From Candidatus Zixiibacteriota bacterium (GTDB lineage: Bacteria; Zixibacteria; MSB-5A5; DG-27): a stretch of 64,000 bases of DNA. Below the pieces are notes generated by a model. The model saw nothing but the letters and a program-made list of their open reading frames with translations. It was not told where the DNA came from and searched no databases. The position numbers were made by a program, and so were the translations under genes. The DNA lies in the NCBI GenBank assembly GCA_030605835.1, contig JAUWHO010000048.1, positions 1 through 64,000 of the forward strand. The letters run 5' to 3'. Positions 1,514 to 51,078 of the stretch are shown one piece after another. How positions within the stretch are numbered: position 1 is the stretch's first letter; each line of letters opens with the position of its first letter.

Positions 1514-1882
1514 GAAAAAATGAGGCTCTCAATCTAGCAGTGTCCTCGCTTGACACTCGGCGGTCGCCGAGCCAACAGCTTCCTATCGATTCTGAGTGGG
1601 GTGAATTCTCTTGCGGAAACGATTGCATCGGTGTGAAAGGTCTTACACACAATTCCGCTAATTACCATCTGACGCAAAAACTCACCAGAAGTCAGAGATA
1701 GCCCATCCCTTTTTCCTATTCTGTTGCCAATCACCATCTTGGTGACTTCTGGACCTGCTCCGGCTGGACTTCGGAGTAAATCTCCGCAAAGAGAGGTCCG
1801 GAGGCACAGCAGTTGCGCTTGTCTAATTCCGAAGCAGAGAGTCTTCTTAAGTCCACCTCACCTTCTATATAAGGAGGTCAGC
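1514..1882. other. Intergenic region between divergent ABC operon and subtilase
   Basis: No gene is supported here. It holds a perfect 7-bp hairpin CTCGGCG-GT-CGCCGAG (1556-1571) and a 10-bp inverted repeat, CCAGAAGTCA (1685-1694) with TGACTTCTGG (1743-1752), 48 bases apart, inside the presumed leader of the protease gene. No riboswitch class was recognised. A TTG-led frame from 1724 is continuous with the protease but codes for an implausible N-terminus. Confidence 0.4.
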
Positions 1883-3634
1883 TTGAAGTTTGCGAGAATT
1901 CTGTTATTTCCGTTTCTGATTGTGGCGCTCTTTTTTTTTCTCCCGCAGAGATCGAGAGGCGCTACCTCGGTTCCTGATTTCATCTCCGAGTTAGAGCCCA
2001 ATGAGAGGGCCTCAGTTTTAGTCTCCCTCTCCGACTCTGAGGACATCTCCGTTCTCAAATCGAGGCTCATAGCCTCGGGATTGAACAGGGCGCGGATTCA
2101 CAGAGAAATCGTCAGCACTCTGAAGAAAAGATCTTTCAGTTCCCAGCGTCGTCTGATCGATTATCTGAAGGAACGCGAAAGGCTTGGTTTCGAGATAGAC
2201 TACCGACCCTTCTGGATTTCCAACACCATTTCAGTTCGTGCTCCCAAAGAGGAATTGCAGAGGATTGCAGCCCTTCCCGAAGTGGAGGCGCTTTTCCCCG
2301 ACCTCCCGATTACGCTTATAGAACCTCTGTTGGGTGACAATTCCACCGCGGTTACAGGTGGCCCGGAGTCTGGACTCAAGGCCATCGGCGCTCCCGAGGC
2401 CTGGGGACAGGGCTATACCGGAGCCGGACGATTAGTCTGCAACTTCGACACCGGGGTTGACGGAAATCACCCGGCGCTCTCTTCCCGTTTCCGGGGCAAC
2501 AACGGCGCCAGCCCGGAGGCTTCTTGGTTTGACCCTTACAGCAATACCGACCATCCAGCAGACGAGAGGGGTCACGGAACTCACACCATGGGGATTATGT
2601 GCGGAGCGGAGGGTGCGGATACTGTCGGGGTGGCGATCGGTGCTGAATGGATAGCCGCGGGAGTGGTCGATAGAGGGGGTAAGATGGAGACCACCATCTC
2701 CGATATTCTATCAGCTTTCGAGTGGGCGGTCGATCCCGACGGAGATCCGGAGACCTTTGACGATGTCCCCGATGTCATAAGCAACTCCTGGGGAGTGCCG
2801 TTAAGTTACCTGCCGGCTTGTGATCAGACCTTCTGGGAGGCGATAGATAACGTTGAGGCCTGTGGAGTGGTGGTCATCTTCGCCGCCGGCAACGAAGGTC
2901 CCCAAGCCCAGTCTCTTCGCACTCCTGCCGATAGAGCCACCTCCCCCACTAACAGCTTCGCGGTCGGAGCCATAGATGCTCACAAGCCTGACTATCCCAT
3001 CGCCTATTTCTCAAGCCGCGGGCCTTCCGGCTGCGATGGGATTACGATCAAACCGGAGGCGACCGCTCCGGGATACTCGATCCGCTCCTGTTTCCTTAAT
3101 GGGGAGTATCTGAATCTGAGCGGAACTTCGATGGCAGCTCCGCATGTCGCCGGTGCGGTGGCGATTTTGAGACAATTCAAGCCGGAGGCCACTGTCGAGG
3201 AAATCAAAACCGCACTGATGTTCACCGCACGAGATTTGGGACCGACCGGAGAAGACAACACGTATGGTTGGGGGCTGATTGACATTCCTAAAGCGATGGA
3301 GTTTCTGGTTAATCCGTCGGTTGTGACCTTCAATTCCTCCTCTTTCGAGTTCCCCAAGAATTTCAGCCTGCTTGGAAACTATCCCAATCCCTTTAATCCC
3401 TGCACCCGGATAGCATATAGTATAAACGAACCGGGCGCGGTCACCCTGGAGATCCTGAATCTCCTTGGAGAGCAAGTAACTCTTCTGGAGAGCGGTTACA
3501 AATACCCCGGTCAATATGTAACGATTTGGAACAGTATGAACAGCGGCGGCGACAAGGTAAGCTCCGGCTTATACTTCTATCGCCTCAGTCTGGGTGATGA
3601 ATATCGCCTCGGAAGAATGACGCTCGTAAGATAG
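1883..3634 (+). CDS. Secreted subtilisin-like serine protease (S8) with T9SS C-terminal tail
   Basis: Exported endopeptidase of 583 residues. A perfect AAGGAGGT (1871-1878) four bases before TTG 1883 fixes an unusual TTG start and gives a clean signal peptide (LKFARILLFPFLIVALFFFL). The reading frame extends upstream to 1724, but that part lacks a ribosome site. The catalytic triad is visible: Asp189 in NFDTGVDG, His231 in RGHGTHTMG, Ser416 in SGTSMAAPHVAG, with oxyanion Asn337 in AAGNEGP. An inhibitor-like prodomain occupies about 30-170. The last 90 residues are a Por/type IX sorting domain with LLGNYPNPFNP and a final strand LGRMTLVR. It is therefore predicted to cross the outer membrane by T9SS and be anchored or released. 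Confidence 0.93.
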   Translation: MKFARILLFPFLIVALFFFLPQRSRGATSVPDFISELEPNERASVLVSLSDSEDISVLKSRLIASGLNRARIHREIVSTLKKRSFSSQRRLIDYLKERERLGFEIDYRPFWISNTISVRAPKEELQRIAALPEVEALFPDLPITLIEPLLGDNSTAVTGGPESGLKAIGAPEAWGQGYTGAGRLVCNFDTGVDGNHPALSSRFRGNNGASPEASWFDPYSNTDHPADERGHGTHTMGIMCGAEGADTVGVAIGAEWIAAGVVDRGGKMETTISDILSAFEWAVDPDGDPETFDDVPDVISNSWGVPLSYLPACDQTFWEAIDNVEACGVVVIFAAGNEGPQAQSLRTPADRATSPTNSFAVGAIDAHKPDYPIAYFSSRGPSGCDGITIKPEATAPGYSIRSCFLNGEYLNLSGTSMAAPHVAGAVAILRQFKPEATVEEIKTALMFTARDLGPTGEDNTYGWGLIDIPKAMEFLVNPSVVTFNSSSFEFPKNFSLLGNYPNPFNPCTRIAYSINEPGAVTLEILNLLGEQVTLLESGYKYPGQYVTIWNSMNSGGDKVSSGLYFYRLSLGDEYRLGRMTLVR

Positions 3635-3919: not shown

Positions 3920-4624
3920 ATGAAGAAAGTTATGATCTTGCTGGTTGCAGGGCTTTTCTTATGGTCTGCGAACAGCTTCGCCTATGTCTGGCCGGGCGAC
4001 CCTTATGTTGGCCTGGGAAGCCTTCAGGGCTACCTTCTCGACGATTACGCCATCCAGATTGAGGACCAGATCGAGGCTGAGGTCTTCTTCCAGACGGCCG
4101 CAGAGTATGCCACTGTGATTGTTCGTGAGGCTGGCTGGGCAGAGAATGAGGCCTTTGGCTGGTATCGGGAAGGCAATTTCGAGAACGAGATTGTCCCTGA
4201 GGGCCTGTATGGAACCTACTATTTCGACACCGGCCCGGGAGCATTCGGCTTTGAGATCTACGGCGAGTTCAACCAGAGTTACGGCTGGACTGCCTGGTAT
4301 TCGGAGAGGTTCCGGAACACCTCGCACGGAGAGGACCCCACCTTGCAGCACCTCTTGATTTTCCCGAACTACGAGTGGGATCCTGCGCATCCGGGGCAGT
4401 TCGAGTATCGTATCAGAGTTCCTTATTCTTATGTGCTCTGCTGGGAGGATCAGGTTCGGAATCCCGACAGCCCCTATTTCACGACCTGCACAAAGGACTT
4501 TGACGATTTCGTCGCTGAGGTTGGAGGTATTACCGTGGTTCCGGAGCCCGGCACTCTCGCGCTGTTAGGAATGGGACTGCTCGGCTTGGGCGGAGCCGCT
4601 CGTTTCAGAAGGAAGAAGAAATAA
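3920..4624 (+). CDS. PEP-CTERM sorting-domain secreted protein
   Basis: 234 residues of unknown function. The N-terminal signal peptide is MKKVMILLVAGLFLWSANSFA. The C-terminus has the three parts of a PEP-CTERM sorting signal: VPEPGTLALLG, a hydrophobic helix GMGLLGLGGAA, and the basic tail RFRRKKK. In this family an exosortase cleaves near the PEP motif and the protein goes to the outer surface or extracellular matrix. The middle is rich in Trp, Tyr, Phe and acidic residues, consistent with a beta-rich secreted domain. GGAGG lies seven bases before ATG 3920. No exosortase gene is in the window. It is flanked by a promoter and a strong terminator, so it is a single-gene unit. Confidence 0.85.
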   Translation: MKKVMILLVAGLFLWSANSFAYVWPGDPYVGLGSLQGYLLDDYAIQIEDQIEAEVFFQTAAEYATVIVREAGWAENEAFGWYREGNFENEIVPEGLYGTYYFDTGPGAFGFEIYGEFNQSYGWTAWYSERFRNTSHGEDPTLQHLLIFPNYEWDPAHPGQFEYRIRVPYSYVLCWEDQVRNPDSPYFTTCTKDFDDFVAEVGGITVVPEPGTLALLGMGLLGLGGAARFRRKKK

Positions 4625-12354: not shown

Positions 12355-13182
12355 ATGTCAGTGAAGTTTAGAGTTTTGTTCTCGGGTCTTATCTGTCTTT
12401 TCCTCTCGTTTAGTCTCGCCTTCGGACAGGAAGCTCTGATGCAGGAGGTGGCCGGAGGGAAGATCGATTGGGGAGACCAGCTGGTGATAGTCACCGGAAT
12501 CGGGGCTCCCAATCCCAGGCTCTCCCCGGCCCAACAGCGCACCAGCGCCCTAACTGCCGCCCGCATTGACGCCCAGAGGCGACTTCTGGAAATCATCAAG
12601 GGGGTGACCCTGACCGCCGAGACGGTGGTCAACAACTCCATGGTGGAGTCGGACATTATCAGGACCACCGTGGAGGGGACCATCAGAGGTTTCCGCCAGG
12701 CGGGAGCACCGCGCTACATAGAAGATGGCACCGTGGAGATCGATGTGGAGGTGGCACTCTCCGGGCGCATTCTGGGAGCGGTTCTGCCGCCGACCGGCTC
12801 CAAGCAGACCGAGTACGAAAGCAAGGAGATCCCCTCCGATCCGAGCAGCTCTTACACCGGGATGATTGTTGATTGTCGGGGCCTGAACGTTCTGTTTGCC
12901 TTGGCACCTCGGGTCTTAAACGAGCTGGGGGAGGAGGTCTACGGTCCCGATTGGGTCGATCGTGACGTCGCTGCCGAGACCGGCGTGGTCGGTTACTACG
13001 CCTCCGAGGAAGATTGCAGGACTCGTGCTGGAAACAATCCCTTCATGGTCAAGGCCATGAGGAGTGCTGGCAGCAACAACTGCGATGTCCTCATCCCCAA
13101 CGTGGATGGCACCGTCCTATCCTCCACCGAGGAGAATCTGATTTTCATGGACCAGTGCAAGGTGGCCTTCTGGGTTGACTGA
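12355..13182 (+). CDS. LPP20-domain exported protein
   Basis: 275 residues. The signal peptide MSVKFRVLFSGLICLFLSFSLA ends near FGQ with no lipobox Cys, so this is not a lipoprotein. Residues about 35-145 form an LPP20-like domain with IVTGIGAPNP, AARIDAQRRLLEIIKG, and DGTVEIDVEVALSG; in Vibrio the LPP20 protein FlgP partners FlgO and FlgT at the outer-membrane flagellar ring. A second half (about 165-275) contains MIVDCRGLNV and KAMRSAG and resembles the tail found in envelope paralogues of this type. GGAGG lies eight bases before ATG. It leads a five-gene cluster (to 17528) of FlgT-, CsgG- and FecR-like envelope proteins. Confidence 0.82.
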   Translation: MSVKFRVLFSGLICLFLSFSLAFGQEALMQEVAGGKIDWGDQLVIVTGIGAPNPRLSPAQQRTSALTAARIDAQRRLLEIIKGVTLTAETVVNNSMVESDIIRTTVEGTIRGFRQAGAPRYIEDGTVEIDVEVALSGRILGAVLPPTGSKQTEYESKEIPSDPSSSYTGMIVDCRGLNVLFALAPRVLNELGEEVYGPDWVDRDVAAETGVVGYYASEEDCRTRAGNNPFMVKAMRSAGSNNCDVLIPNVDGTVLSSTEENLIFMDQCKVAFWVD

Positions 13183-13234
13183 GGAAGCGGTACGGACGCT
13201 GTCGGAATAGTCTTCATATTTGAAAGGTAAAACC

Positions 13235-14422
13235 ATGAGGAAGTTCTCGGGGCAGTTCCTGCTTGTGATTCTTTGCCCCTTATGCATCCTTGTCCTTGCT
13301 GCCGATATTTCGGCTCAGGAGGAGATCACCGTAACCTCCACCGGGCTGGGGGTCATAATCGCCGGGGATGTCGGCAAGGCCCGAGATGAGGCTCTAAACG
13401 ATGCCCTGCGGAAGGCGGTGGAGCAAGCAGTGGGAACCATCATCTCCGCCCGGAGCGTCGTCGAAAACGCCGTGCTCATCCAGGATAATATCTACAGTAA
13501 GACCTCCGGCTACATCAAAAGCTACAATCTGGTGAGGGAGGGCAAAAGCGTCAATATCCCCAACACATACGAGGTGGCGATCACCGCCACCGTCTCCAAA
13601 GCCAGCATCAAGGACGATTTGGCCGCCCTCGGCATTCTGATTGAAAGAAAGGGTTTTCCTCGAATGATGGTCCTAATCGAGGAGAAAAACATCGAACAGC
13701 ACCAGTGGGTCAGGGAGGCTCACAACCTCAACACCGCCGAGCAGAAAGTTCAGGAGATCTTCAGGAACAAGGGTTTCGAGTTCGTTGACCAAAAGACCGC
13801 CTTCAGGAACCTACAAAGGGACCAGGAGATGGCCATAAATCGCGGCGATACCGAGGCTGCGGTCGCTTTGGGGAATCGTAGCGGTGCTGAGGTCATCATC
13901 ACCGGAAATGCGATCGCTAAAAAATCGAGCGCCAGCGTTGAACTCGGGGGAATGATTTCTGTCCAGGCTAACGTCAACATGCGGGCGATTCGAACCGACA
14001 ATGCCGACATTATCGCCTCCGCCTCCGCCTCCGCCCCCCAGGTTCACATCGACGATGTTACCGGCGGGGTCATGGCCATCCAGAAGGCCACCGAGAAGGT
14101 GGCAGAACAGCTCTCGGAGCAGATTATCTCCACCTGGAGCGAGGATTTAGCCTCCGGGATGCGAGTCAACATCATCGTTCACAACATTCAGTCTTTCGGA
14201 GATCTCAACGACTTCAAATTCGTCCTGAAGGATTATGTCCGCGGCACCAAATCCGTAGATATGAGGTCCTTCTCCAGCGGTGTCGCCGAATTCGATCTGG
14301 AGACCACCAGCACCGCCAACGACATTGCCGAATCTCTGACTGGTAAGGAGATCGAAAAATTCAGGGTTGAAGTCTTGGGAGTGACGCAGAACAAACTGGA
14401 ATTGAGAATTCATAGGAAGTAG
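13235..14422 (+). CDS. FlgT N-terminal-domain protein, exported
   Basis: 395 residues with signal peptide MRKFSGQFLLVILCPLCILVL. Residues about 27-130 match the FlgT_N domain: GDVGKARDEALNDALRKAVEQAVG, VVENAVLIQDNIYSKTSGYIKSY and NTYEVAITATVSK. The rest (130-395) has an alpha/beta LPP20/TolB-like fold with AVALGNRSGAEVIITGNA and a closing TQNKLELRI strand. In Vibrio FlgT the N, middle (CsgG-like) and C domains are one polypeptide; here the next gene carries the latter two. The frame extends to TTG 13220, but ATG 13235 is preferred with AAAGGT upstream. The gene lies 52 bases after the LPP20 gene. No flagellar genes are in the window. Confidence 0.78.
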   Translation: MRKFSGQFLLVILCPLCILVLAADISAQEEITVTSTGLGVIIAGDVGKARDEALNDALRKAVEQAVGTIISARSVVENAVLIQDNIYSKTSGYIKSYNLVREGKSVNIPNTYEVAITATVSKASIKDDLAALGILIERKGFPRMMVLIEEKNIEQHQWVREAHNLNTAEQKVQEIFRNKGFEFVDQKTAFRNLQRDQEMAINRGDTEAAVALGNRSGAEVIITGNAIAKKSSASVELGGMISVQANVNMRAIRTDNADIIASASASAPQVHIDDVTGGVMAIQKATEKVAEQLSEQIISTWSEDLASGMRVNIIVHNIQSFGDLNDFKFVLKDYVRGTKSVDMRSFSSGVAEFDLETTSTANDIAESLTGKEIEKFRVEVLGVTQNKLELRIHRK

Positions 14423-14441
14423 AGGAGGGAAAAGGATAATA

Positions 14442-15353
14442 ATGGCCATTAAGAAAATCCTGACCGGGGTCTTGCTTTCGGCATTCATTCTGGTCGCTGC
14501 CGGGTTTGCTCAGGAGGTTGAAGAGAAGCCCCTCACCGGGTTGAAGAAGCGTATCGCGGTTTTCAATTTCGAGAACAAGAGTGACTACGGCAAGGGCAAC
14601 GTGGGTGAGGGCATGGCGGACATGTTGACCACCGAGCTGGTCAAGTCCGGCAAATACCGGGTCATCGAACGTGGCCAGATACAGACGGTGATGCAGGAGC
14701 AGAAGTTAGGCCTCACCGGAGCGGTGACCTCCAACACCGCCAGCCAACTGGGAAAGCTCTTAGGAGTGGAGTTAGCGGTCTTCGGGTCGGTGACGGAGTT
14801 CGGGCAGAAAAAGGAGGAGAAGGGAACCGGGTTTAAGGGGCGCTCTTTCGGTATGACCAAGACGGTGGCTCGGGTGGCCATCGACGTGAGGATCGTCAAC
14901 ACCGAGACTGGCGAAATCCTGGCCGCTGACAACGTCGCCAAAGAGGAGAAAAAAACCGGCCTGAGTGTGAAGGTTCCGGACTTCAACTTCCAAGACAAGT
15001 CCAGCTTCGACAAAACCTTGGTGGGGAAAGCGACTCGTGCCTGCATCCAGGAGATCATCCACAAAATCGATGCTCAGATGGGAAAGGTCCCCTGGTACGG
15101 AAAGATAATAAAGGAGAGCGGCGGGATTGTTTACATCAACCGCGGGGTTAGCTCCGGCTTGCAGGTCGGTAATGTCCTGGAGGCTTACTCTCCGGGAGAG
15201 GAATTGATCGACCCCGAGACTGGGATCTCCCTCGGGAGCGAGGAGACTAAAATCGGCAGGGTGCAGATAGTCGACGTCCAGCAGAGATTCTCCAAGGCGA
15301 TAATAAAGCAGGGTGCCGGCTTCAAAGCGGGAGATCTGGTCAAGGAATACTAG
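14442..15353 (+). CDS. CsgG-family protein with FlgT C-terminal-like domain
   Basis: 303 residues with signal peptide MAIKKILTGVLLSAFILVAAGFAQ. The CsgG/FlgT-M core (about 35-205) shows KRIAVFNFENKS, GEGMADMLTTELVKSGKYRVIERGQ, KLGLTGAVTSNTASQLGKLLGVELAVFGSVTEF cut across several blocks, and VARVAIDVRIVNTETGEIL. Residues 220-303 form a small SH3-like domain (GIVYINRGVSSGLQVGN, KIGRVQIVDVQQRFSKAII) that resembles the FlgT C domain and binds peptidoglycan or ring partners in homologues. It starts 19 bases after the FlgT_N gene with AGAGGAGGG upstream. A terminator follows, so LPP20, FlgT_N and this gene form one transcription unit. There is no lipobox. Confidence 0.82.
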   Translation: MAIKKILTGVLLSAFILVAAGFAQEVEEKPLTGLKKRIAVFNFENKSDYGKGNVGEGMADMLTTELVKSGKYRVIERGQIQTVMQEQKLGLTGAVTSNTASQLGKLLGVELAVFGSVTEFGQKKEEKGTGFKGRSFGMTKTVARVAIDVRIVNTETGEILAADNVAKEEKKTGLSVKVPDFNFQDKSSFDKTLVGKATRACIQEIIHKIDAQMGKVPWYGKIIKESGGIVYINRGVSSGLQVGNVLEAYSPGEELIDPETGISLGSEETKIGRVQIVDVQQRFSKAIIKQGAGFKAGDLVKEY

Positions 15354-15373
15354 GTTTTATTATCCAGTCTGTG

Positions 15374-15410
15374 GAAACCCCGGGAGGTGACTTCTGTCGG
15401 GGTTTCTTTT
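15374..15410 (+). terminator. Rho-independent terminator after the CsgG/FlgT-like gene
   Basis: Nine-bp stem GAAACCCCG (15374-15382) with CGGGGTTTC (15398-15406), 15-base loop, then TTTT. Confidence 0.75.
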
Positions 15411-15433
15411 ATACCCAAAGCACCTTGTAAGAT

Positions 15434-15515
15434 AGGGAACAGGAGACAGGAGATAGGAGATAGGAAACGGGGAATTATCCTTAAACTATGAACCATGAAC
15501 TATGAACTGTGAACC
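15434..15515. repeat. Heptanucleotide tandem repeats, locus 1
   Basis: Five 7-base units of the type AGGRRAC/T (15434-15468: AGGGAAC, AGGAGAC, AGGAGAT twice, AGGAAAC). A second array of four units AACYRTG (15484-15511: AACTATG, AACCATG, AACTATG, AACTGTG) lies 15 bases on. The gap between the CsgG/FlgT gene and the FecR gene (15354-15659) holds these, the terminator and one palindrome, but no gene. Confidence 0.8.
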
Positions 15516-15522
15516 GACGTGG

Positions 15523-15549
15523 GTAGCCCCCGGCCTCTGCCGGGGGAAT
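15523..15549. repeat. GTAG-headed GC-rich palindrome
   Basis: GTAG, then CCCCCGGC (15527-15534), loop CTCT, GCCGGGGG (15539-15546). A closely similar element lies at 20955-20985. Confidence 0.8.
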
Positions 15550-15659
15550 CAGATAATTCTGTTGCCCTTTGGGTGCTGAATTGATATTTTAAGGAAAGTC
15601 CGGTTCAGGATTTGACGATTATTGAGCATAAAAGACAACTTCCGGAAGGCAGGTAAGGT

Positions 15660-16388
15660 ATGAAGAGAATAATCGTCTTTTTCAGTTGTTTTCTCCTTGT
15701 AGCAGCTTTCTTCGAGGGATCCGCCTCCGGTGGGCAGAGTCTCTCCGGGGGGGATGATCCTGCCAAGCTTTCCTTTTTCCTCGGGGAAGTGAAGAGCAAA
15801 GTGAATGAGAACTCCGAGTGGCAGCCGGCGGTGCTGAATCAGGGGCTATCTCAACAGACCTCTCTTAAGACCGGAGAGGAGTCCAGGGCAGAGGTTAGCT
15901 TCCACGATGGCAGCGTTGCTCGCGTGGATCAGAACTCGCAGTTGAGTTTCACGGAGCTTGTGAGCGATGCCGAGGGTCAGAAGGTGGAGGGTCGCCTCTC
16001 GGTTGGTAAGTTATGGGCGAACGTTAAGAAACTGGGGGGGAAGAACTCCTCCTTCAAAACCCAGACCACCACCGCGGTGGCAGCCGTTCGGGGGACCGTC
16101 TTTCGCCTCAATCTGCTGCCCGATTCCACCACGGAGTTATACGTCTATGAGGGGGAGGTGACGGTGAAACCTTTCTGGGCGAAGGCCAAACCCTCCTGGC
16201 CACCCAAGGAGGTGGAGCCACCCAAGGAGGTCGGCCTCAAGGAGTGGACCGAGATCGTGCGGGCACAGATGAAGCTCATCGTCAAGCCGGACAAGGCACG
16301 CACCAGGTTGGTGGAGAGTTTCAATCCGGAAGAGGATTTAAAGGACGAATGGGTAATGTGGAACAGAAAGAGGGATGCTTTGCGTTGA
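15660..16388 (+). CDS. FecR-domain exported protein
   Basis: 242 residues with signal peptide MKRIIVFFSCFLLVAAFF. A FecR domain spans about 40-165: LKTGEESRAEVSFHDGSVARV, QLSFTEL, VGKLWANVKKLGG, FKTQTTTAVAAVRGTVFRL and ELYVYEGEVTVK. In TonB systems FecR relays to a FecI sigma factor, but many stand-alone FecR proteins sit in envelope assemblies with CsgG/LPP20 relatives. No sigma gene is adjacent, so the second role is more likely. The tail has a KEVEPPKEV repeat and charged residues. No strong ribosome site is seen before ATG 15660. It is the fourth gene of the 12355-17528 cluster. Confidence 0.85.
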   Translation: MKRIIVFFSCFLLVAAFFEGSASGGQSLSGGDDPAKLSFFLGEVKSKVNENSEWQPAVLNQGLSQQTSLKTGEESRAEVSFHDGSVARVDQNSQLSFTELVSDAEGQKVEGRLSVGKLWANVKKLGGKNSSFKTQTTTAVAAVRGTVFRLNLLPDSTTELYVYEGEVTVKPFWAKAKPSWPPKEVEPPKEVGLKEWTEIVRAQMKLIVKPDKARTRLVESFNPEEDLKDEWVMWNRKRDALR

Positions 16389-16466
16389 CATCACGATCTC
16401 AATACGGACTGTTCCAGCATCAGCGATAACAACTTGGCTCCACAGATTGCTGAAGGGTGAACGAAT

Positions 16467-17528
16467 ATGGATCCTTTCCGCAAGGCTCCAGAAATAGATT
16501 TCAACTCTTATTTGGTTTTGCTGCTGGCGTTCTGTTTCCTTCTATCCTGTGCTGCGCCCAAGACCTCTCTGCGGGTGATCCGCCCCGCGGAGGTCGATAT
16601 GTCCGACTATCGCAAAATTGCGGTCGCCGACTTTCGTGGACCGGGGCGTTCCGGCTCCCTGGCGGCCTCGATTCTCACCTCCGAGATCTTCAAGAGCGGC
16701 TATTTCGACCTCCTCGAACGGCAACACATGAAAAAGATCTTAGAGGAACAGGCATTCTCCCTGACCGGTGCCGTCGATGTCGCCACCGCCGCCGAGATCG
16801 GCGAGATGTTGGGAGTGGAGGCTCTGATCTTCGGTGAGGTCACCAGCTACAGCGTGGAGGATTTGGAGGGCACCGAAAAAGTAAAAAAGAAAGTCTGGAC
16901 CGGAGAATACGAGAAGGACAAAGATGGAAATATCATCTACGAAAAGGGGCTTTTCGGCATAAAGCACAAGAAGAAGAAATACAAGGAGGAGTTCGTCGAC
17001 GAGCCCTATGTTGTCCGCTCGGCCTCGGTGGCGGTGAATTTCCGGGTGGTCGCGGTCGAGACCGCGGAGCTTCTGGCAGTCAAATCCAACTCCAGCAGTT
17101 ACAACAAGAAGGCGACTGGCACCGACCAGATCGGGAAATTACCCGCCAAAGAAAGTATCTTGGAAAACCTCAGCCGCAAAGTGGTCGACACCTTCGTCCG
17201 CCAAATTGCACCCTATTATGCCACCGTCACCAAGAAGTTCGAGAAGGGGAGTGGGGCTTCCAAACAGGCGATCAAGATGGCGCAAAACGGCCTGTGGGAT
17301 AAGGCCCTGGAGATCTTCCAAAGAGAGGCTCAGATCCATCCTAAACCTGAGAATTATTACAACATCGGAGTATGTTATGAGGCCTTAGGGAGGTATGATA
17401 TGGCAGAAAAGCAGTATGAAACCGCCCTGAGCCTCAAAGCCAAGGACCTGTATATAAAAGCAGTTGCCGACATCAGAAAACTGAAAGAGGAAAGAGAGAT
17501 TTTGAGGGAAAGGGAAAAAGAGGAGTAG
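16467..17528 (+). CDS. CsgG-like lipoprotein with C-terminal TPR repeats
   Basis: 353 residues. The hydrophobic segment LVLLLAFCFLLSCAAP ends in a lipobox (LLSC), so it is probably lipid-anchored after a 12-residue hydrophilic lead. The CsgG-like core runs to about 255: KIAVADFRGPG, SILTSEIFKSGYFDLLERQHMKKI, AEIGEMLGVEALIFGEVTSYS and a Lys-rich insertion (KHKKKKYKEE). Residues about 265-340 hold two TPR-like repeats (MAQNGLWDKALEIFQREAQ and YYNIGVCYEALGRYDMAEK). A highly charged helix ends the protein. CsgG forms the outer-membrane curli pore in enterics, but here no curlin genes are present. It follows the FecR gene by 78 bases and closes the cluster. Confidence 0.85.
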   Translation: MDPFRKAPEIDFNSYLVLLLAFCFLLSCAAPKTSLRVIRPAEVDMSDYRKIAVADFRGPGRSGSLAASILTSEIFKSGYFDLLERQHMKKILEEQAFSLTGAVDVATAAEIGEMLGVEALIFGEVTSYSVEDLEGTEKVKKKVWTGEYEKDKDGNIIYEKGLFGIKHKKKKYKEEFVDEPYVVRSASVAVNFRVVAVETAELLAVKSNSSSYNKKATGTDQIGKLPAKESILENLSRKVVDTFVRQIAPYYATVTKKFEKGSGASKQAIKMAQNGLWDKALEIFQREAQIHPKPENYYNIGVCYEALGRYDMAEKQYETALSLKAKDLYIKAVADIRKLKEEREILREREKEE

Positions 17529-18261: not shown

Positions 18262-18321
18262 CGTCTATTCTCACCCCTTTCTCAACCAGCCGTCATTCAA
18301 CATCCGGTTTCTATTTTGTCG

Positions 18322-19623
18322 ATGATGAGGATTTCGTCCGTTAAAGTCCGAAGCCTCGCCGAGAGACATGATGTTCAAGTCGGGGAGCAGCTCCTTTCCA
18401 TAAATGGGCACCGGATCTCTGATCTTATCGATTACCGTTTTTATCAAGCTGACGAATTCCTGCAACTACAATTGCGAAACAAAGAGGGGAAGATCTATTC
18501 GCTGGAAATAACAAAAGACCCCGATGAAGATTTAGGTCTGGTTTTGGAGGAACCCAAATATAAGAGCTGTCCTAACAAGTGTATCTTCTGCTTCGTCCAT
18601 CAGCTTCCGGGGGGCTTAAGGAAGTCTTTGTATTTCAAAGACGAGGATTACCGCCTGTCGTTTCTCTACGGGAACTATATCACTCTGACCAATATCACTT
18701 CCAAAAATACCAAAAGAATCAGGGAACAGAACCTCTCCCCGCTTTACATCTCGGTTCACACCACCGACGAGGTCTTGAGGAAACGGATGCTGGGCAACCC
18801 CAAAGCTCCAGATTTGCTTCCATTGATGAAGAGGTTGACGGAGGCGGGAATGGAACTCCACACCCAGGTGGTGGTCTGTCCGGGAATAAACGACGGCGAG
18901 GCTTTAGAGAAGACCATAAAGGATTTGTCTAAGTTTTTCCCGCAGGTGAAGTCAGTAGCAATCGTCCCGGTGGGGTTGACCAGATACAGGGAAGGTCTCC
19001 CGAAAATCGAGTCGGTGGATAAGGAGAAAGCGATTGAGATCCTCTCGATGATCGAGAAGTGGCGAACGTGGGGTCGGAAGAATCTCGGTGGCAACTTCGT
19101 TTACGCCTCCGATGAGCTCTATCTCCTCAGTGACCTTGACATCCCCAAATGCGACTATTATGATGATTTCTGGCAGATCGAAAACGGGGTGGGACTGGTC
19201 AGACGCTTCGTGGACGATTTCGAGAAGAATTCTCAAGCGCTTCCCGAAACACTCCCCCGGCCGGTGGAGGTGAATTTCGTCACCGGAAAACTGGCCTCCA
19301 CAATCTTTGAAGAGACCGTGATCAGAAGACTTAAAAGGATAAAGAATCTGAAAGCCTCATTGACGGTTATCGAAAACGACTTTTTCGGACAGACCGTGAC
19401 AGTCTCCGGGCTTCTCACCGGCAAGGATATTCTGCGTTCCATAGACGAGAACACCGAACTGGAGACTATCACCTTTCTCCCTCCAGACTGCGTTAACCGC
19501 GAAGGGCTGTTCTTAGACGATCTGAAGGTTGAAGACCTCAGCGAGAAGTCAAAACGCAGAGTAATCCTCGGCCGTTACGACTTAGCCTCGCAGCTTGCGG
19601 CCTTTCTCAAGAAGGGGATGTAA
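18322..19623 (+). CDS. PDZ/radical SAM/DUF512 family protein
   Basis: About 433 residues in three parts. An N-terminal PDZ-like domain (VGEQLLSINGHRISDLIDYRF) comes first, then a radical SAM-like cysteine motif CPNKCIFC (Cys83, Cys87, Cys90), then the DUF512 region with VCPGINDGEALEKTI, LTRYREGLP and the C-terminal FLPPDCVNREGLFLDD. The biochemical function of the family is unknown. Its stop TAA overlaps the start of der as TAATG, and this DUF512-der pairing is common in other bacteria, which suggests a role linked to ribosome assembly. The frame opens at TTG 18316; ATG 18322 or 18325 is the likely start. Confidence 0.9.
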   Translation: MMRISSVKVRSLAERHDVQVGEQLLSINGHRISDLIDYRFYQADEFLQLQLRNKEGKIYSLEITKDPDEDLGLVLEEPKYKSCPNKCIFCFVHQLPGGLRKSLYFKDEDYRLSFLYGNYITLTNITSKNTKRIREQNLSPLYISVHTTDEVLRKRMLGNPKAPDLLPLMKRLTEAGMELHTQVVVCPGINDGEALEKTIKDLSKFFPQVKSVAIVPVGLTRYREGLPKIESVDKEKAIEILSMIEKWRTWGRKNLGGNFVYASDELYLLSDLDIPKCDYYDDFWQIENGVGLVRRFVDDFEKNSQALPETLPRPVEVNFVTGKLASTIFEETVIRRLKRIKNLKASLTVIENDFFGQTVTVSGLLTGKDILRSIDENTELETITFLPPDCVNREGLFLDDLKVEDLSEKSKRRVILGRYDLASQLAAFLKKGM

Positions 19624-20939
19624 TGTCAACACCGATCGTCGCCATAGTCGGTCGTCCCAACGTGGGCAAATCCACCCTCTTCAATCGCCTGATAAAGAGA
19701 AGAGTTGCCATCACCGACGAGACCCCGGGAGTAACCAGGGATCGCAACTATGCTCCGTGCTCCTGGAACAGCAGGGATTTCCTTTTGGTCGACACCGGCG
19801 GTCTGGTTCCGAATCCGAAGGAGTTTTTAGAATCGCAGGTGAAATCCCAGGTGGAGGTTGCCATCGAGGAGTCAGAGCTCATACTCTTCCTTCTGGATAC
19901 TCAAACCGGGATCGTGGGCGTAGATTCGGACATCGCCGATCTCCTGCGCTCAAGAAAAAAAGAGGTATTGGTGGTCGCCAACAAGGTAGATGACTCCAGG
20001 TCAGAAACCGACGCTGCTCTATTCCACAAGCTGGGATTGGGCGAGGTCATCTCCGTCTCGGCCTTAAACGGTCGCAACATCGGCGAGCTTTTGGATTTGA
20101 TTGCAGGCTCGCTTCCCTCCGTTCCTGAGAAAATCGAAGAGGAGGAGATACCTCGAATCGCGATTCTGGGTCGGCCCAACGTCGGCAAGTCCTCCCTGAT
20201 CAACAAGCTCCTGGGTCAGGAGAAGATGATTGTCGCCGCCACCCCGGGAACCACCAGAGATGCAATTGACACTGAGATAAACTACGGCGGGCGCAGATTG
20301 ATTCTCACCGACACTGCGGGATTACGGAAACGAGCAAGAGTCAAGGAGGATATAGAATTCTATACGAATCTTAGAGCTATAAGAAGCATCGAGCGTTCGC
20401 AGGTGGCTTTGCTCCTTTTAGATGGATACGAGGGATTGACCAATCAGGATTTGAAGATCGCCGAGGAGGTCACCTCCCGCTGGCGGGGATTGGTGTTGGT
20501 GGTCAACAAATGGGACTTAGTCGAGAAGGATTCAAACACCGCCCATCTTTACGCCGAGCAGATAAAAAAGAAGGCGGCGCTTTTGGCTTACGTCCCGGTG
20601 GTCTTCACCTCCGCCCTCACCGGACAGAGGCTGAGTAACGCCTTAGACACCGCCTTGGAGGTATATGATCAGAGACAGATGAGAGTGAACACCCGCAAGC
20701 TAAACGAGGTGTTGAGGGGTGAGATCGATAGAAGACCGCCGGCGGCGGTGAGGGGAAAGTTCATAAAATTCTCATACATCGCTCAGGTCGGAGTCGCTCC
20801 CCCCACTATTGTCTTTTTCTGCAACCGTCCCGAAGATCTCCAGAAGAGCTATCTGAGATTTCTGGAGAACAGAATTCGAGAGCATTTCGGTTTCATCGGA
20901 TGTCCCATAAGAATGAAGTTCAAGAGGAAACATAACTGA
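19623..20939 (+). CDS. der: Ribosome assembly GTPase Der (EngA)
   Basis: 438 residues with the tandem GTPase domains that define Der, needed for 50S subunit maturation. Domain 1 has G1 GRPNVGKST (10-18), G2 DETPGVTRD, G3 DTGG and G4 NKVD. Domain 2 (from about 178) has GRPNVGKSS, ATPGTTRD, DTAGLRKR and NKWD. The C-terminal KH-like domain ends with FGFIGCPIRMKFKRK. Translation is coupled to the DUF512 gene by the TAATG overlap. A GTAG-headed palindrome follows the stop. Confidence 0.98.
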   Translation: MSTPIVAIVGRPNVGKSTLFNRLIKRRVAITDETPGVTRDRNYAPCSWNSRDFLLVDTGGLVPNPKEFLESQVKSQVEVAIEESELILFLLDTQTGIVGVDSDIADLLRSRKKEVLVVANKVDDSRSETDAALFHKLGLGEVISVSALNGRNIGELLDLIAGSLPSVPEKIEEEEIPRIAILGRPNVGKSSLINKLLGQEKMIVAATPGTTRDAIDTEINYGGRRLILTDTAGLRKRARVKEDIEFYTNLRAIRSIERSQVALLLLDGYEGLTNQDLKIAEEVTSRWRGLVLVVNKWDLVEKDSNTAHLYAEQIKKKAALLAYVPVVFTSALTGQRLSNALDTALEVYDQRQMRVNTRKLNEVLRGEIDRRPPAAVRGKFIKFSYIAQVGVAPPTIVFFCNRPEDLQKSYLRFLENRIREHFGFIGCPIRMKFKRKHN

Positions 20940-43081: not shown

Positions 43082-44719
43082 ATGCTGAGATTCCGCAAAG
43101 AGGGGATAGCTCTTGAGCTGGCTCTGAGCTCCACGAAGCTCTTCGGGGACTTCTTGAATCACTTCGACAAGCTCTCCTCCTTCCTGGTCGGAGATTTCAG
43201 AGACTCGGAGAGTTACGAGAAGGTCTCGGAAACCATCGACTCCAGGGAATATCCCCGGGATCAGCTCTCCGATATTCTCACGAGACAGAATAGCCTCTAC
43301 GGGCTGAGCCGGGAGGTGGAGGCGAACATTTCCAGACTGAGGGAAGCGGAGAGCTTGATGGTCATTACCGGGCAACAGGTGGGGCTTTTGGGAGGGACCG
43401 TCCTGTCACTCTACAAGGCCATCGGGGCCATAAAGCTGGCGGGGGAGTTGTCCGAGAAGCTCTCCCGTCCGGTGATTCCCGCCTTCTGGATGGCGACCGA
43501 CGACCACGACTACAGCGAGGTCAACCAGCTTCAAGTTCTAAACTCCGCAAGCCAGATAAGCAAGTATATTTATGCCTTCTCCCCGGAGATGATGGGACGT
43601 CCGATCTCGGAGGTCAAAGTCGATGCCAGCATAGAGGGGCTCTTCGTCAGCCTCGAAAAAGCGTTGTCGGACTCCGAATTCAAAGCCGCTCTCCTGGGGA
43701 GGCTGCGAACATTTTACGCCGAGCGGAGACCCCTTTTGGAGGGGTTCGCCCGACTCTTCGCGGACCTCTTCGGAAAATACGGGCTGATTCTGATAAACCC
43801 CGCGGAACGAGGATTTAAGAGATTAGCTTCACCCCTGTTCCGAAGGGAGATCGAGGAGTTCCCCAAGCCCCTGGGGGTGATAGAGGAGACCAACAAACTT
43901 CTGGAGTCCTGCGGCTACCATCTGCAGGTGCAGAAGTCCAAACCGGGACCGAATCTGTTTTTGAGCAGAGACAAAAGGGAGCCGATCAGAGCGGGGGAGG
44001 CTCAGTTTGTCTCAGGGGAGAGCGGCCTGGAGGTCAGCTCCCAGGAGCTGCTCGGAGAGCTGAAGGAGAGCCCGGAGAGATTCTCCCCCAATGTCCTTCT
44101 AAGGCCGGTGATGCAGGGTTTTCTCTTCCCGACGGTGGCGTATGTTGCCGGACCCTCGGAGGTAGCATACTGTGTTCAGGTGAAGTCGCTTTCTCATTAT
44201 CATGAAGTTCCCTGCCCGGTGGTCTCTCCTCGTCCTTCAGCCACCATAATTGAGAGCAAGATCGGGAAGGTCCTGGACAAATACCAGGTGAATTTCCTCG
44301 ATTTCTTCAGAGACCGGGAGGGAGTCATAAACAGGATCTACTCCGAGGACTTTCCTCCGGAACTGGGGGCCAGTGCCGATGAGTTCCACCGCGAGGTCTT
44401 AAGACCGTTCGAAGAGTACAGAGGCAAGTTCCGCCACTTAGGGGAGAGCTTCACGAAGAACCTGGAGAGAGTTCAGAGCAGGTTCGATTATGAGATGAAA
44501 AACCTCAAGGCCAAAACCTTCCAAGCACATAAGAAGATGAACCAGGATGCCAAAGACCAGTTGGAGAGAGCCCATCTCTTCCTGTTCCCCACCGGCAGGC
44601 TCCAGGAGCGGGTTCTCTCGCCGGTCTATTTTTTGAACAAATACGGTCCCGAGTTCATTGAGACTCTCCATGAGGCCTTGGAGGTAAACTCCAGTGAGCA
44701 TCGTCTAATACACTTCTAG
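43082..44719 (+). CDS. bshC: Bacillithiol biosynthesis cysteine-adding enzyme BshC
   Basis: 545 residues, the usual length. It joins cysteine to glucosaminyl-malate in the last step of bacillithiol synthesis. Family marks: VITGQQVGLLGGTVLSLYKAIGAIKLA, PVIPAFWMATDDHDYSEVNQL, YGLILINPAERGFKRL, LLRPVMQGFLFPTVAYVAGPSEVAYCVQ, and a C-terminal coiled coil (FEEYRGKFRHLGESFTKNLERV). It is three bases from bshA, the first pathway gene. BshB, the deacetylase, is not in the window. Confidence 0.95.
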   Translation: MLRFRKEGIALELALSSTKLFGDFLNHFDKLSSFLVGDFRDSESYEKVSETIDSREYPRDQLSDILTRQNSLYGLSREVEANISRLREAESLMVITGQQVGLLGGTVLSLYKAIGAIKLAGELSEKLSRPVIPAFWMATDDHDYSEVNQLQVLNSASQISKYIYAFSPEMMGRPISEVKVDASIEGLFVSLEKALSDSEFKAALLGRLRTFYAERRPLLEGFARLFADLFGKYGLILINPAERGFKRLASPLFRREIEEFPKPLGVIEETNKLLESCGYHLQVQKSKPGPNLFLSRDKREPIRAGEAQFVSGESGLEVSSQELLGELKESPERFSPNVLLRPVMQGFLFPTVAYVAGPSEVAYCVQVKSLSHYHEVPCPVVSPRPSATIIESKIGKVLDKYQVNFLDFFRDREGVINRIYSEDFPPELGASADEFHREVLRPFEEYRGKFRHLGESFTKNLERVQSRFDYEMKNLKAKTFQAHKKMNQDAKDQLERAHLFLFPTGRLQERVLSPVYFLNKYGPEFIETLHEALEVNSSEHRLIHF

Positions 44720-49158: not shown

Positions 49159-49218
49159 TCTTTCGTTGGGCACACGACCAGGGAGGTCCATATCCCTCGA
49201 ACGATGGGTGGAGGGAAG

Positions 49219-51078
49219 ATGGTGAAATCACAGCAAAGCCACCTTTTAGTTCTAACCTGCGTCCTGATATTGTTTTTGCCCGCGCAGGCTCTCTGTCAGG
49301 TCAGGGCCGAGGATATAACCGCCGATTTCGAATCCGGCAATATCACCGGTGTCACTGATAACGGCCCCAATGACCTTTACATGAGAATCCGTCTGGATGA
49401 TAATCACGGCGATCTATACGGCTGGTTCTATTTCAAAATCAAGGAGCACGCCTTAAACCAGACCGTCACCTTCCACATCACCAATCCGGACGGTTGGGTC
49501 AACTCCGATTATAGGCCGGTCTATTCTTACGAGCGCATGGTCTGGAACCGGGTCAGCAACACAACCTTCTCCGGCGGGAGTCTGATCTTCGGGCACACTT
49601 TCAGCCGCGACAGCGTCTATATCGCCTTCTGCCTCCCTTACACCACAACCGACCTCGACCAGTTCTTAGACTCCGTTGAAGATAGTCCCTACCTCTCCAG
49701 GGAGATAGTCGGCCAGAGCGCCGGCGGTCGCGACATCGAACTGGTCACCATCACCGACTTCGAGCTGCCGGTTCTGGGCAAAAAGACCGCCTGGATAATC
49801 AGCCGTCAACACCCGATGGAGACCGGAGCCACGTTCTTAATTGAGAATCTGATATCCTCTCTTATAGATACAACCGATGAGATCGGGAGCCTCCGAAAGA
49901 GAATGACCTGGAAAATCAATCCCATAGTGAACGTTGACGGGGTATACGAGGGGCTTTCGCGCCACAATATCAACGGGATCAACCTCAACCGCAATTGGGA
50001 TTACAACGGTAATTACCAGAATGAGGAGCCGAGCGTGGCTGCTGTCCACCGGGCGATAGACGAGTGGATAGACCAAGGTCACAGCATTGATTTCTTCATA
50101 GATATGCATTGTGCCCCGGACTATTACGATTTCGGGTTCAAGTTGGCTTTGGGGTATGTTCCCCTCTCTTACTGGTTGAACCAGAAAAGCTTCCTCCACT
50201 TCTTAGAGACTTACGACCCCTGGCAGAACGCCTCCCTGTGGCGGGACATCGATGAGAGTTACGGTGGTGGGCTCTCGATGATGGCGATGTTCAGACAGCA
50301 CGAGATTGATGCTCTCTCCTCCGAGAATCCCTGGCTGATGAGGGACAACGGCTCTTATGTGACCATGTCCAGTTACAGAGGCCAAGGACCTCCGACGGCC
50401 CAGGCAATTTACGATTACCTTTTCTGTGTCGAATTCACCGATTCTGCCGGGGGGCTGACCGAGACTTACCCCTGGGAGGAGCTGGTCTATCTGACGGTGG
50501 AGGATCCGGACGAGAACCACTCAATGTATTACCTCGACGAGGTAGAGGTGACCGTGACCACCTCCGCAAGCTCCGACACCGAAGTGGTGCTATTGACGGA
50601 GATAGAGGAGAACGCCGGCATTTTCAGGAATCTCATTGGACTTCCCCTATCGAAGGGCTCTCCCTGTAATAATAATGGCATAATAGAGACTTCTGCTGGA
50701 GCGGTCCTTTATGCCCTCTATCAGGACGACGATTATCCGAAAGACGAGAGCACCGACACCGCCCTTGTCGGCCAGCTGACTTTGGTGGAGACCAGCGAGT
50801 CGGCGGGAATTCCGGGGTCAATCGAGCTTTTCGAGAGCTATCCCAACCCCTTCAATAGCTCAGCATCGATCAGCTACCAGCTGGAGTCTCGTGGCCACGT
50901 TTCCCTGAAGATCTACAACCTTCTCGGACAGCAGGTTGCAACCCTGGTGGAGGGGCATAGGCCTGAAGGTCGGCACACCGTCACCTGGAATGCAGACAAT
51001 TCTCTCAGTGGGATATACTTCTGCAGATTGGAATTCAGAACTGAAAGCAGGGTTCTAAAGATCATCTTGCTAAGATAA
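49219..51078 (+). CDS. Secreted M14-family zinc carboxypeptidase with T9SS tail
   Basis: 619 residues. Signal peptide around HLLVLTCVLILFLPAQALCQ. An N-terminal beta domain (FHITNPDGW, PVYSYERMVW) precedes the catalytic domain, as in cytosolic-carboxypeptidase-like M14 enzymes. Zinc ligands are His198 and Glu201 in RQHPMETGA and His297 in FIDMHCA; substrate-side NPIVNVDGV and NLNRNWD are present, and Glu405 in CVEFTD is the likely catalytic base. A linker domain (430-520) leads to a type IX sorting tail with FESYPNPFN, IYNLLGQQVATLVEG, SGIYFCRLEF. ATG 49219 follows GGAGGG. Like the subtilase at 1883 it is predicted to be exported by T9SS. Confidence 0.92.
   Translation: MVKSQQSHLLVLTCVLILFLPAQALCQVRAEDITADFESGNITGVTDNGPNDLYMRIRLDDNHGDLYGWFYFKIKEHALNQTVTFHITNPDGWVNSDYRPVYSYERMVWNRVSNTTFSGGSLIFGHTFSRDSVYIAFCLPYTTTDLDQFLDSVEDSPYLSREIVGQSAGGRDIELVTITDFELPVLGKKTAWIISRQHPMETGATFLIENLISSLIDTTDEIGSLRKRMTWKINPIVNVDGVYEGLSRHNINGINLNRNWDYNGNYQNEEPSVAAVHRAIDEWIDQGHSIDFFIDMHCAPDYYDFGFKLALGYVPLSYWLNQKSFLHFLETYDPWQNASLWRDIDESYGGGLSMMAMFRQHEIDALSSENPWLMRDNGSYVTMSSYRGQGPPTAQAIYDYLFCVEFTDSAGGLTETYPWEELVYLTVEDPDENHSMYYLDEVEVTVTTSASSDTEVVLLTEIEENAGIFRNLIGLPLSKGSPCNNNGIIETSAGAVLYALYQDDDYPKDESTDTALVGQLTLVETSESAGIPGSIELFESYPNPFNSSASISYQLESRGHVSLKIYNLLGQQVATLVEGHRPEGRHTVTWNADNSLSGIYFCRLEFRTESRVLKIILLR

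Follow-up and report, generated by a model that had tools for sequence, protein, structure and literature searches.

What would relatives of flagellar ring proteins do in a bacterium with no detectable flagellum? This question is raised by five consecutive genes, P1 to P5, in the 64,000-nucleotide stretch of DNA analyzed here (the window), taken from contig JAUWHO010000048.1 of a Candidatus Zixiibacteriota bacterium (assembly GCA_030605835.1, hereafter G000; 2.68 Mb, 53 contigs, 96.4% complete). FlgO, FlgP, and FlgT are regarded as accessory proteins that increase flagellar torque. The products of P1, P2, and P3 share their domains with these proteins, and the genes recur as a linked set in other genomes, including lineages without flagella. 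The reading we favor, to which we give even chances, is that the P1-P2-P3 proteins assemble in the periplasm, against the inner face of the outer membrane, into a non-flagellar structure that probably couples this membrane to peptidoglycan or supports another envelope machine.

An earlier note on this DNA, made from the sequence alone, had described five consecutive exported proteins. Five open reading frames (ORFs) were found in these positions, and each translation begins with a hydrophobic export signal; a lipobox is present in P5 only. P1 and P2 are separated by 52 nt and P2 and P3 by 19 nt. The gap between P3 and P4 is 306 nt and contains an intrinsic terminator with an 11-bp stem, an inner 3-bp stem, and a U-rich tail (Table 1). 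Because this strong terminator follows P3, P1-P2-P3 is the core unit, with P4 and P5 as a second unit, and a single operon of five genes was ruled out. The one cluster seen in the note thus holds as a neighborhood, with P4 conserved beside P3 or P2, but it consists of two units. A promoter scan of the cluster gave matches near chance.

P1 had been identified as an LPP20 protein like FlgP. In P1 alone the LPP20 model scored 17.9 bits, under the Pfam cut-off of 25.9, and a WOR-3 ortholog exceeded the cut-off at 30.7 bits. The N-terminal half of the P1 profile matched FlgP of Campylobacter (9hmf, E = 3e-12) as well as FlgP of other motors; 9HMF is a Campylobacter jejuni scaffold model (PMC12222027). 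The likeness to FlgP stands, but it is not a full account of the protein. Positions 40–280 of the P1 profile (A10) aligned end to end with domains D1 and D2 of Tp0624 from Treponema pallidum (5jir, residues 17–263; E = 3e-16), and positions 158–271 of a C-terminal profile (A6) aligned with D2 (5jir, residues 138–263) in a region that has no Pfam match. Tp0624 links D1-D2 to an OmpA-like domain, D3; D1 has been published as trigger factor-like and D2 as never occurring without D1 and D3 (PMC5104382). Because the P1 profile spans D1-D2 and its N-terminal half matches FlgP, D1 of Tp0624 is apparently of the LPP20/FlgP type. Judging by sequence comparison, D2 also occurs in proteins without D3, which runs counter to the published survey: P1 and its relatives are D1-D2 alone, and P1 ends after D2 with no OmpA match in Pfam. 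No lipobox was found in the Zixiibacteriota P1 proteins; lipobox-like motifs are present in many of those from WOR-3.

The FlgT_N domain assigned to P2 was confirmed at the level of the family. The model scored 23.1 bits in P2 alone, under the Pfam cut-off of 28.8, but it matched 24 of 30 family members and was above the cut-off in two WOR-3 proteins (33.1 and 43.9 bits). The LipL46 model matched 29 of the 30, and it aligned with P2 over residues 28–355 at 60.5 bits, far under the NCBIfam equivalog cut-off of 400. This alignment relates P2 over its full length to Leptospira LipL46, an outer-membrane lipoprotein (PMC2698987), although P2 of G000 is not itself a lipoprotein. Some family members have Pfam matches to CsgG or FlgO, and profile comparison also aligned P2 with FlgP. 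An AlphaFold2 model of P2 (mean predicted local distance difference test score [pLDDT] of 80) contained FlgT_N-type, CsgG-type, and C-terminal alpha/beta domains. Its best PDB match in Foldseek was FlgT (3w1e, E = 1.1e-10), and its further matches to CsgG, PelC, and LptE support the CsgG-type assignment of the middle domain.

P3 was expected to be a CsgG core with a FlgT_C-like tail, and both parts were recovered. CsgG scored 138 bits (cut-off 20.8), with nearly the full model aligned (5–206 of 210). In profile searches the tail matched TsaP (3jc8, E = 7.5e-12; 6ve2, E = 8.5e-9). FlgT_C itself was found in two of eight P3 orthologs (best E = 3.6e-5), and FlgT_M was weakly matched in one. A Pfam scan of G000 for FlgT_C gave no match; the tail of P3 has diverged too far for this model to recognize, even though the profile search reaches TsaP. 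The top PDB match of the P3 model (mean pLDDT 73) was again FlgT (3w1e, E = 2.5e-16), followed by FlgT in the LPHT ring and then CsgG. Structure prediction, which the note had proposed as a check, therefore gave FlgT as the best match for both P2 and P3, and together with the FlgP match of P1 this argues for the shared ancestry with the flagellar H/T ring that it had suggested. Its further claim, that the FlgT domains are separated between two chains, is right in that the N domain is in P2 and a C-type tail is in P3, but a literal split of FlgT was rejected: it is too simple because P2 and P3 both have a CsgG/FlgT_M-type middle domain, and P2 adds a C-terminal alpha/beta domain.

The set resembles the Vibrio H/T ring (FlgO, FlgP, and FlgT) in its LPP20/SHS2 domains (FlgP and FlgT_N), its CsgG-superfamily alpha/beta domain (FlgT_M and FlgO), its FlgT_C-type tail, and the adjacency of the genes. 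It differs in the distribution of the FlgT-type domains described above and in the extra D2 domain of P1. FlgP is an outer-membrane lipoprotein, whereas P1 of G000 has no lipid anchor. In addition, G000 has no flagellum and hence no basal body to surround. This absence was judged by two markers in the 96.4%-complete genome, FlhA and FlgH, neither of which was found in a genome-wide search. FlhA was also not found in the single congener of G000, which is 52% complete. As the earlier note had observed, no flagellar or curli gene is present among the 28 window genes scanned, the unscanned ORFs lying mainly beyond 51 kb.

P2 and flagella are not associated in the class. FlhA is present in 92 of its 118 genomes; of the eight with P2 orthologs, seven are flagellated, and P2 is missing from 85 flagellated genomes (Fisher p = 0.68). 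All four genomes of family f3 with the module have FlhA, and G016, a single contig without FlhA, keeps P1 adjoining Der. Among 147 WOR-3 genomes, 30 carry P2 and four others have a clear FlhA (one marker; genome completeness not stated). Because none of the 30 WOR-3 carriers has FlhA, the role of the module is probably independent of flagella, consistent with the non-flagellar role that had been proposed.

Comparison of related genomes showed P1-P2 repeatedly beside a CsgG-superfamily gene, in both Zixiibacteriota and WOR-3; such recurring orders represent conserved linkage, not chance. The contig scan of other genomes used one peptide pattern and returned nine loci, which underestimates the spread of the module. 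In Zixiibacteriota, the order is P1-P2-P3 in families f1 and f3, with P4 added in G000 and G003, and P1-P2-LpoB or P1-P2 in family f14; LpoB follows P2 in two loci (L022 and L023). Several of these modules adjoin genes for a DUF512 radical-SAM protein and Der. The order in WOR-3 genome G131 is P1-(SLH-TPR)-P2-P3-FecR-Omp85, and two WOR-3 loci with both flanks present read P1-(SLH-TPR)-P2-FecR-TPR-CsgG-tail. Five others (L098, L100, L101, L102, and L108) have a small CsgG gene followed by P1-P2-X-LpoB, a COG3014-like gene, and DUF1425 (YcfL-like). A P4 ortholog follows P3 in G003 (L018) and either P2 or P3 in WOR-3. A third phylum is represented by a Deinococcus actinosclerus plasmid (L113, 6821–9389), on which a LipL46/P2-type gene is separated by one gene from a CsgG-type gene. 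The trees of P1 and P2 split into the same two main groups, a sign of co-evolution, and the genes of G000 are all intact and conserved, with 58–71% identity to those of f3. A literature search found no description of a combined LPP20/CsgG/FlgT or LpoB/FlgT set.

The periplasmic assembly that we favor would share its domain types with the Vibrio H/T ring and the Campylobacter basal disk. P1 and P2 contribute SHS2/LPP20 domains, P2 and P3 contribute CsgG/FlgT_M-type domains, and P3 adds the FlgT_C/TsaP-type tail. P1 and P2 would most likely associate laterally, by way of the segment that follows the SHS2 helix, to build an arc or a ring. Within the FlgP family, ring formation correlates with an insert at this position (PMC12222027); across that stretch P2 aligned with FlgP without gaps, and the one gap in P1 falls outside it. 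P3 would join P1 and P2 through its CsgG-type core, and its tail, with the Tp0624-type D2 domain of P1, would contact a partner in the outer membrane or the peptidoglycan. A separate lipoprotein would supply the anchor to the outer membrane: P5 in this window and, in many WOR-3 genomes, P1, P2, or the small CsgG proteins themselves. A wall-linked scaffold at the outer membrane is suggested because LipL46, Tp0624 (OmpA-like), TsaP (LysM), the SLH proteins of WOR-3, and the LpoB neighbors all have outer-membrane or wall ties; the COG3014-like, DUF1425, and Omp85 genes near related modules fit the same setting. The module probably serves to couple outer membrane and peptidoglycan or to support some other envelope machine rather than flagellar rotation.

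Several observations weigh against this reading. Ring formation by P1 and P2 is plausible, but it is drawn from the alignment of the insert, and in the AlphaFold2 model the P2 insert forms short helices, not a beta-hairpin. Superposition of P2 on FlgT gave TM-scores of 0.23–0.28, so the domains match but their packing differs. None of P1, P2, and P3 of G000 has a lipid anchor, so their outer-membrane location is indirect, and the LpoB neighbors belong to other branches and not to this window. The CsgG superfamily and LPP20-type domains are also broad families.

The strongest rival, though still improbable, is control of peptidoglycan synthesis, in which the module would be an LpoB-like regulator complex reaching from the outer membrane to the wall synthases. 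P3 belongs to the same superfamily as LpoB, a peptidoglycan-synthase activator, and exceeds the LpoB cut-off (29.6 versus 22.3 bits), and LpoB genes neighbor the module in the two Zixiibacteriota loci and, with the COG3014-like and DUF1425 genes, in the five WOR-3 loci. The cluster in this window, however, has no LpoB gene, P3 is longer than LpoB, tailed, and not a lipoprotein, and the breadth of the CsgG/LpoB superfamily means that its LpoB score is not specific.

A secretion pore at the outer membrane is a somewhat weaker candidate. The earlier note had allowed for a ring or a pore; the ring stands as plausible, and the pore fares less well. P3 would form a CsgG-like nonameric channel exporting a polymer or protein, with P1 and P2 as its periplasmic cap or adaptors. 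Its near-complete CsgG core, a first-hairpin segment similar in length to that of CsgG, and the place of CsgG among the close solved relatives of the P3 model are consistent with this. We nevertheless regard a pore as less likely than a scaffold because P3, like its Zixiibacteriota orthologs, has no lipobox, because the charge of its first hairpin segment is double that in CsgG (0.35 versus 0.17), and because the WOR-3 proteins in its operon position lack the membrane-hairpin segments. The best structural match of P3 is FlgT and not CsgG, some modules have small CsgG/LpoB-type lipoproteins instead of P3, and P3 differs from the curli channel in its extra tail and in the lack of curli genes nearby (CsgA, CsgE, and CsgF were not found among the 28 window genes scanned; no genome-wide search was made).

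TsaP, a secretin-associated LysM protein, surrounds PilQ, and the TsaP-like tail of P3 could by analogy belong to a collar around a type IV pilus or other secretin. G000 encodes four secretins, but these are on contigs C6, C14, C17, and C25, apart from the module, and no pilus genes were recognized beside any module copy. Moreover, the TsaP structure entries join this type of tail to LysM (by their PDB molecule names), whereas P3 carries a CsgG core in its place and has no LysM match in Pfam; we consider a collar doubtful. Finally, a relic of an H/T ring left over from a recently lost flagellum, which the frequency of FlhA in the class and in the f3 carriers might suggest, is very unlikely and largely refuted by the many flagellated relatives without P2 and the FlhA-less WOR-3 carriers, as well as by the intact, conserved genes and the lack of flagellar genes beside them.

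More tentatively, the periplasmic assembly may represent a new flagellum-independent outer-membrane/peptidoglycan ring system of Zixiibacteriota and WOR-3, possibly extending to Deinococcota and, through Tp0624 and LipL46, to spirochaetes. It would come from a stock shared with the H/T ring and basal disk and may be a non-flagellar source of those flagellar rings. A module of the same domains in flagellum-less lineages makes the recruitment of the rings from an older envelope system testable. Two orphan spirochaete proteins also gain sequence context: Tp0624, with an apparent LPP20/FlgP-type D1 and relatives of D2 outside the full-length protein, and LipL46, which belongs with the FlgT_N proteins.

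Table 1. Positions of the P1–P5 genes, their domains, and flanking features in the window
Feature	Position	Strand	Description	Evidence
P1	12355..13182	+	275 aa; exported, no lipobox; LPP20/FlgP (SHS2-like) domain and Tp0624 D2-type domain	ORF, profile, signal peptide
P1 C-terminal domain	12826..13179	+	Homologous to Tp0624 D2	A6 profile versus 5jir; no Pfam family recognizes the region
P2	13235..14422	+	395 aa; exported, LipL46-type; FlgT_N, CsgG/FlgT_M-like, and C-terminal alpha/beta domains	
P2 FlgT_N/LPP20-type domain	13322..13633	+	aa 30–133	Pfam, profile, structure model
P2 CsgG/FlgT_M-like middle domain	13664..14146	+	aa 144–304	AlphaFold2, Foldseek, Pfam matches in some members
P3	14442..15353	+	303 aa; exported, no lipobox; CsgG core and FlgT_C/TsaP-type tail	
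P3 FlgT_C/TsaP-type tail	15096..15350	+	aa 219–303	Profile match to TsaP; FlgT_C in orthologs
Intrinsic terminator	15373..15412	+	Closes the P1-P2-P3 unit	Fold -21.9 kcal/mol, z -3.94, U-rich tail
P4	15660..16388	+	Exported FecR-domain protein; relatives include LipL45 and Lsa33	FecR 57 bits; LipL45 E = 9e-16
P5	16467..17528	+	CsgG-TPR lipoprotein (lipobox LLSC, Cys28), no FlgT_C-type tail	Pfam, lipobox scan
DUF512 radical-SAM protein and Der GTPase	18316..20939	+	Conserved flank of the cluster in several families	Pfam, locus comparison

The second unit agrees with its first description as a FecR-domain protein and a CsgG-TPR lipoprotein. The FecR score of P4 is from Pfam, and its LipL45 match is below the model cut-off; LipL45 and Lsa33 are, like LipL46, Leptospira proteins. 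In P5, both CsgG and TPR are above their Pfam cut-offs. A third CsgG-TPR gene of G000 is located on contig C43 (L026, 4425–8978) and adjoins two proteins that begin like a PorV/UPF0164-like outer-membrane protein of WOR-3 ('NFNFIGSGARARGMGGAFIG'). In the WOR-3 module L031, a PorV/UPF0164-like protein is likewise encoded downstream of the TPR-CsgG gene.

Elsewhere in the window, a zinc carboxypeptidase with a type IX secretion sorting domain is encoded at 49204–51078. The subtilase at 1724–3634 is similar to many proteins near the related loci and probably has a similar C-terminal sorting domain. The module is unlikely to be a general part of type IX secretion: sorting-domain-like C termini occur around many loci, whereas about 8 of the 118 class genomes carry the module. 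A small protein at 3920–4624 has a PEP-CTERM sorting motif, and G000 may use two surface-sorting systems. BshC, the final enzyme of bacillithiol synthesis, is encoded at 43082–44719.

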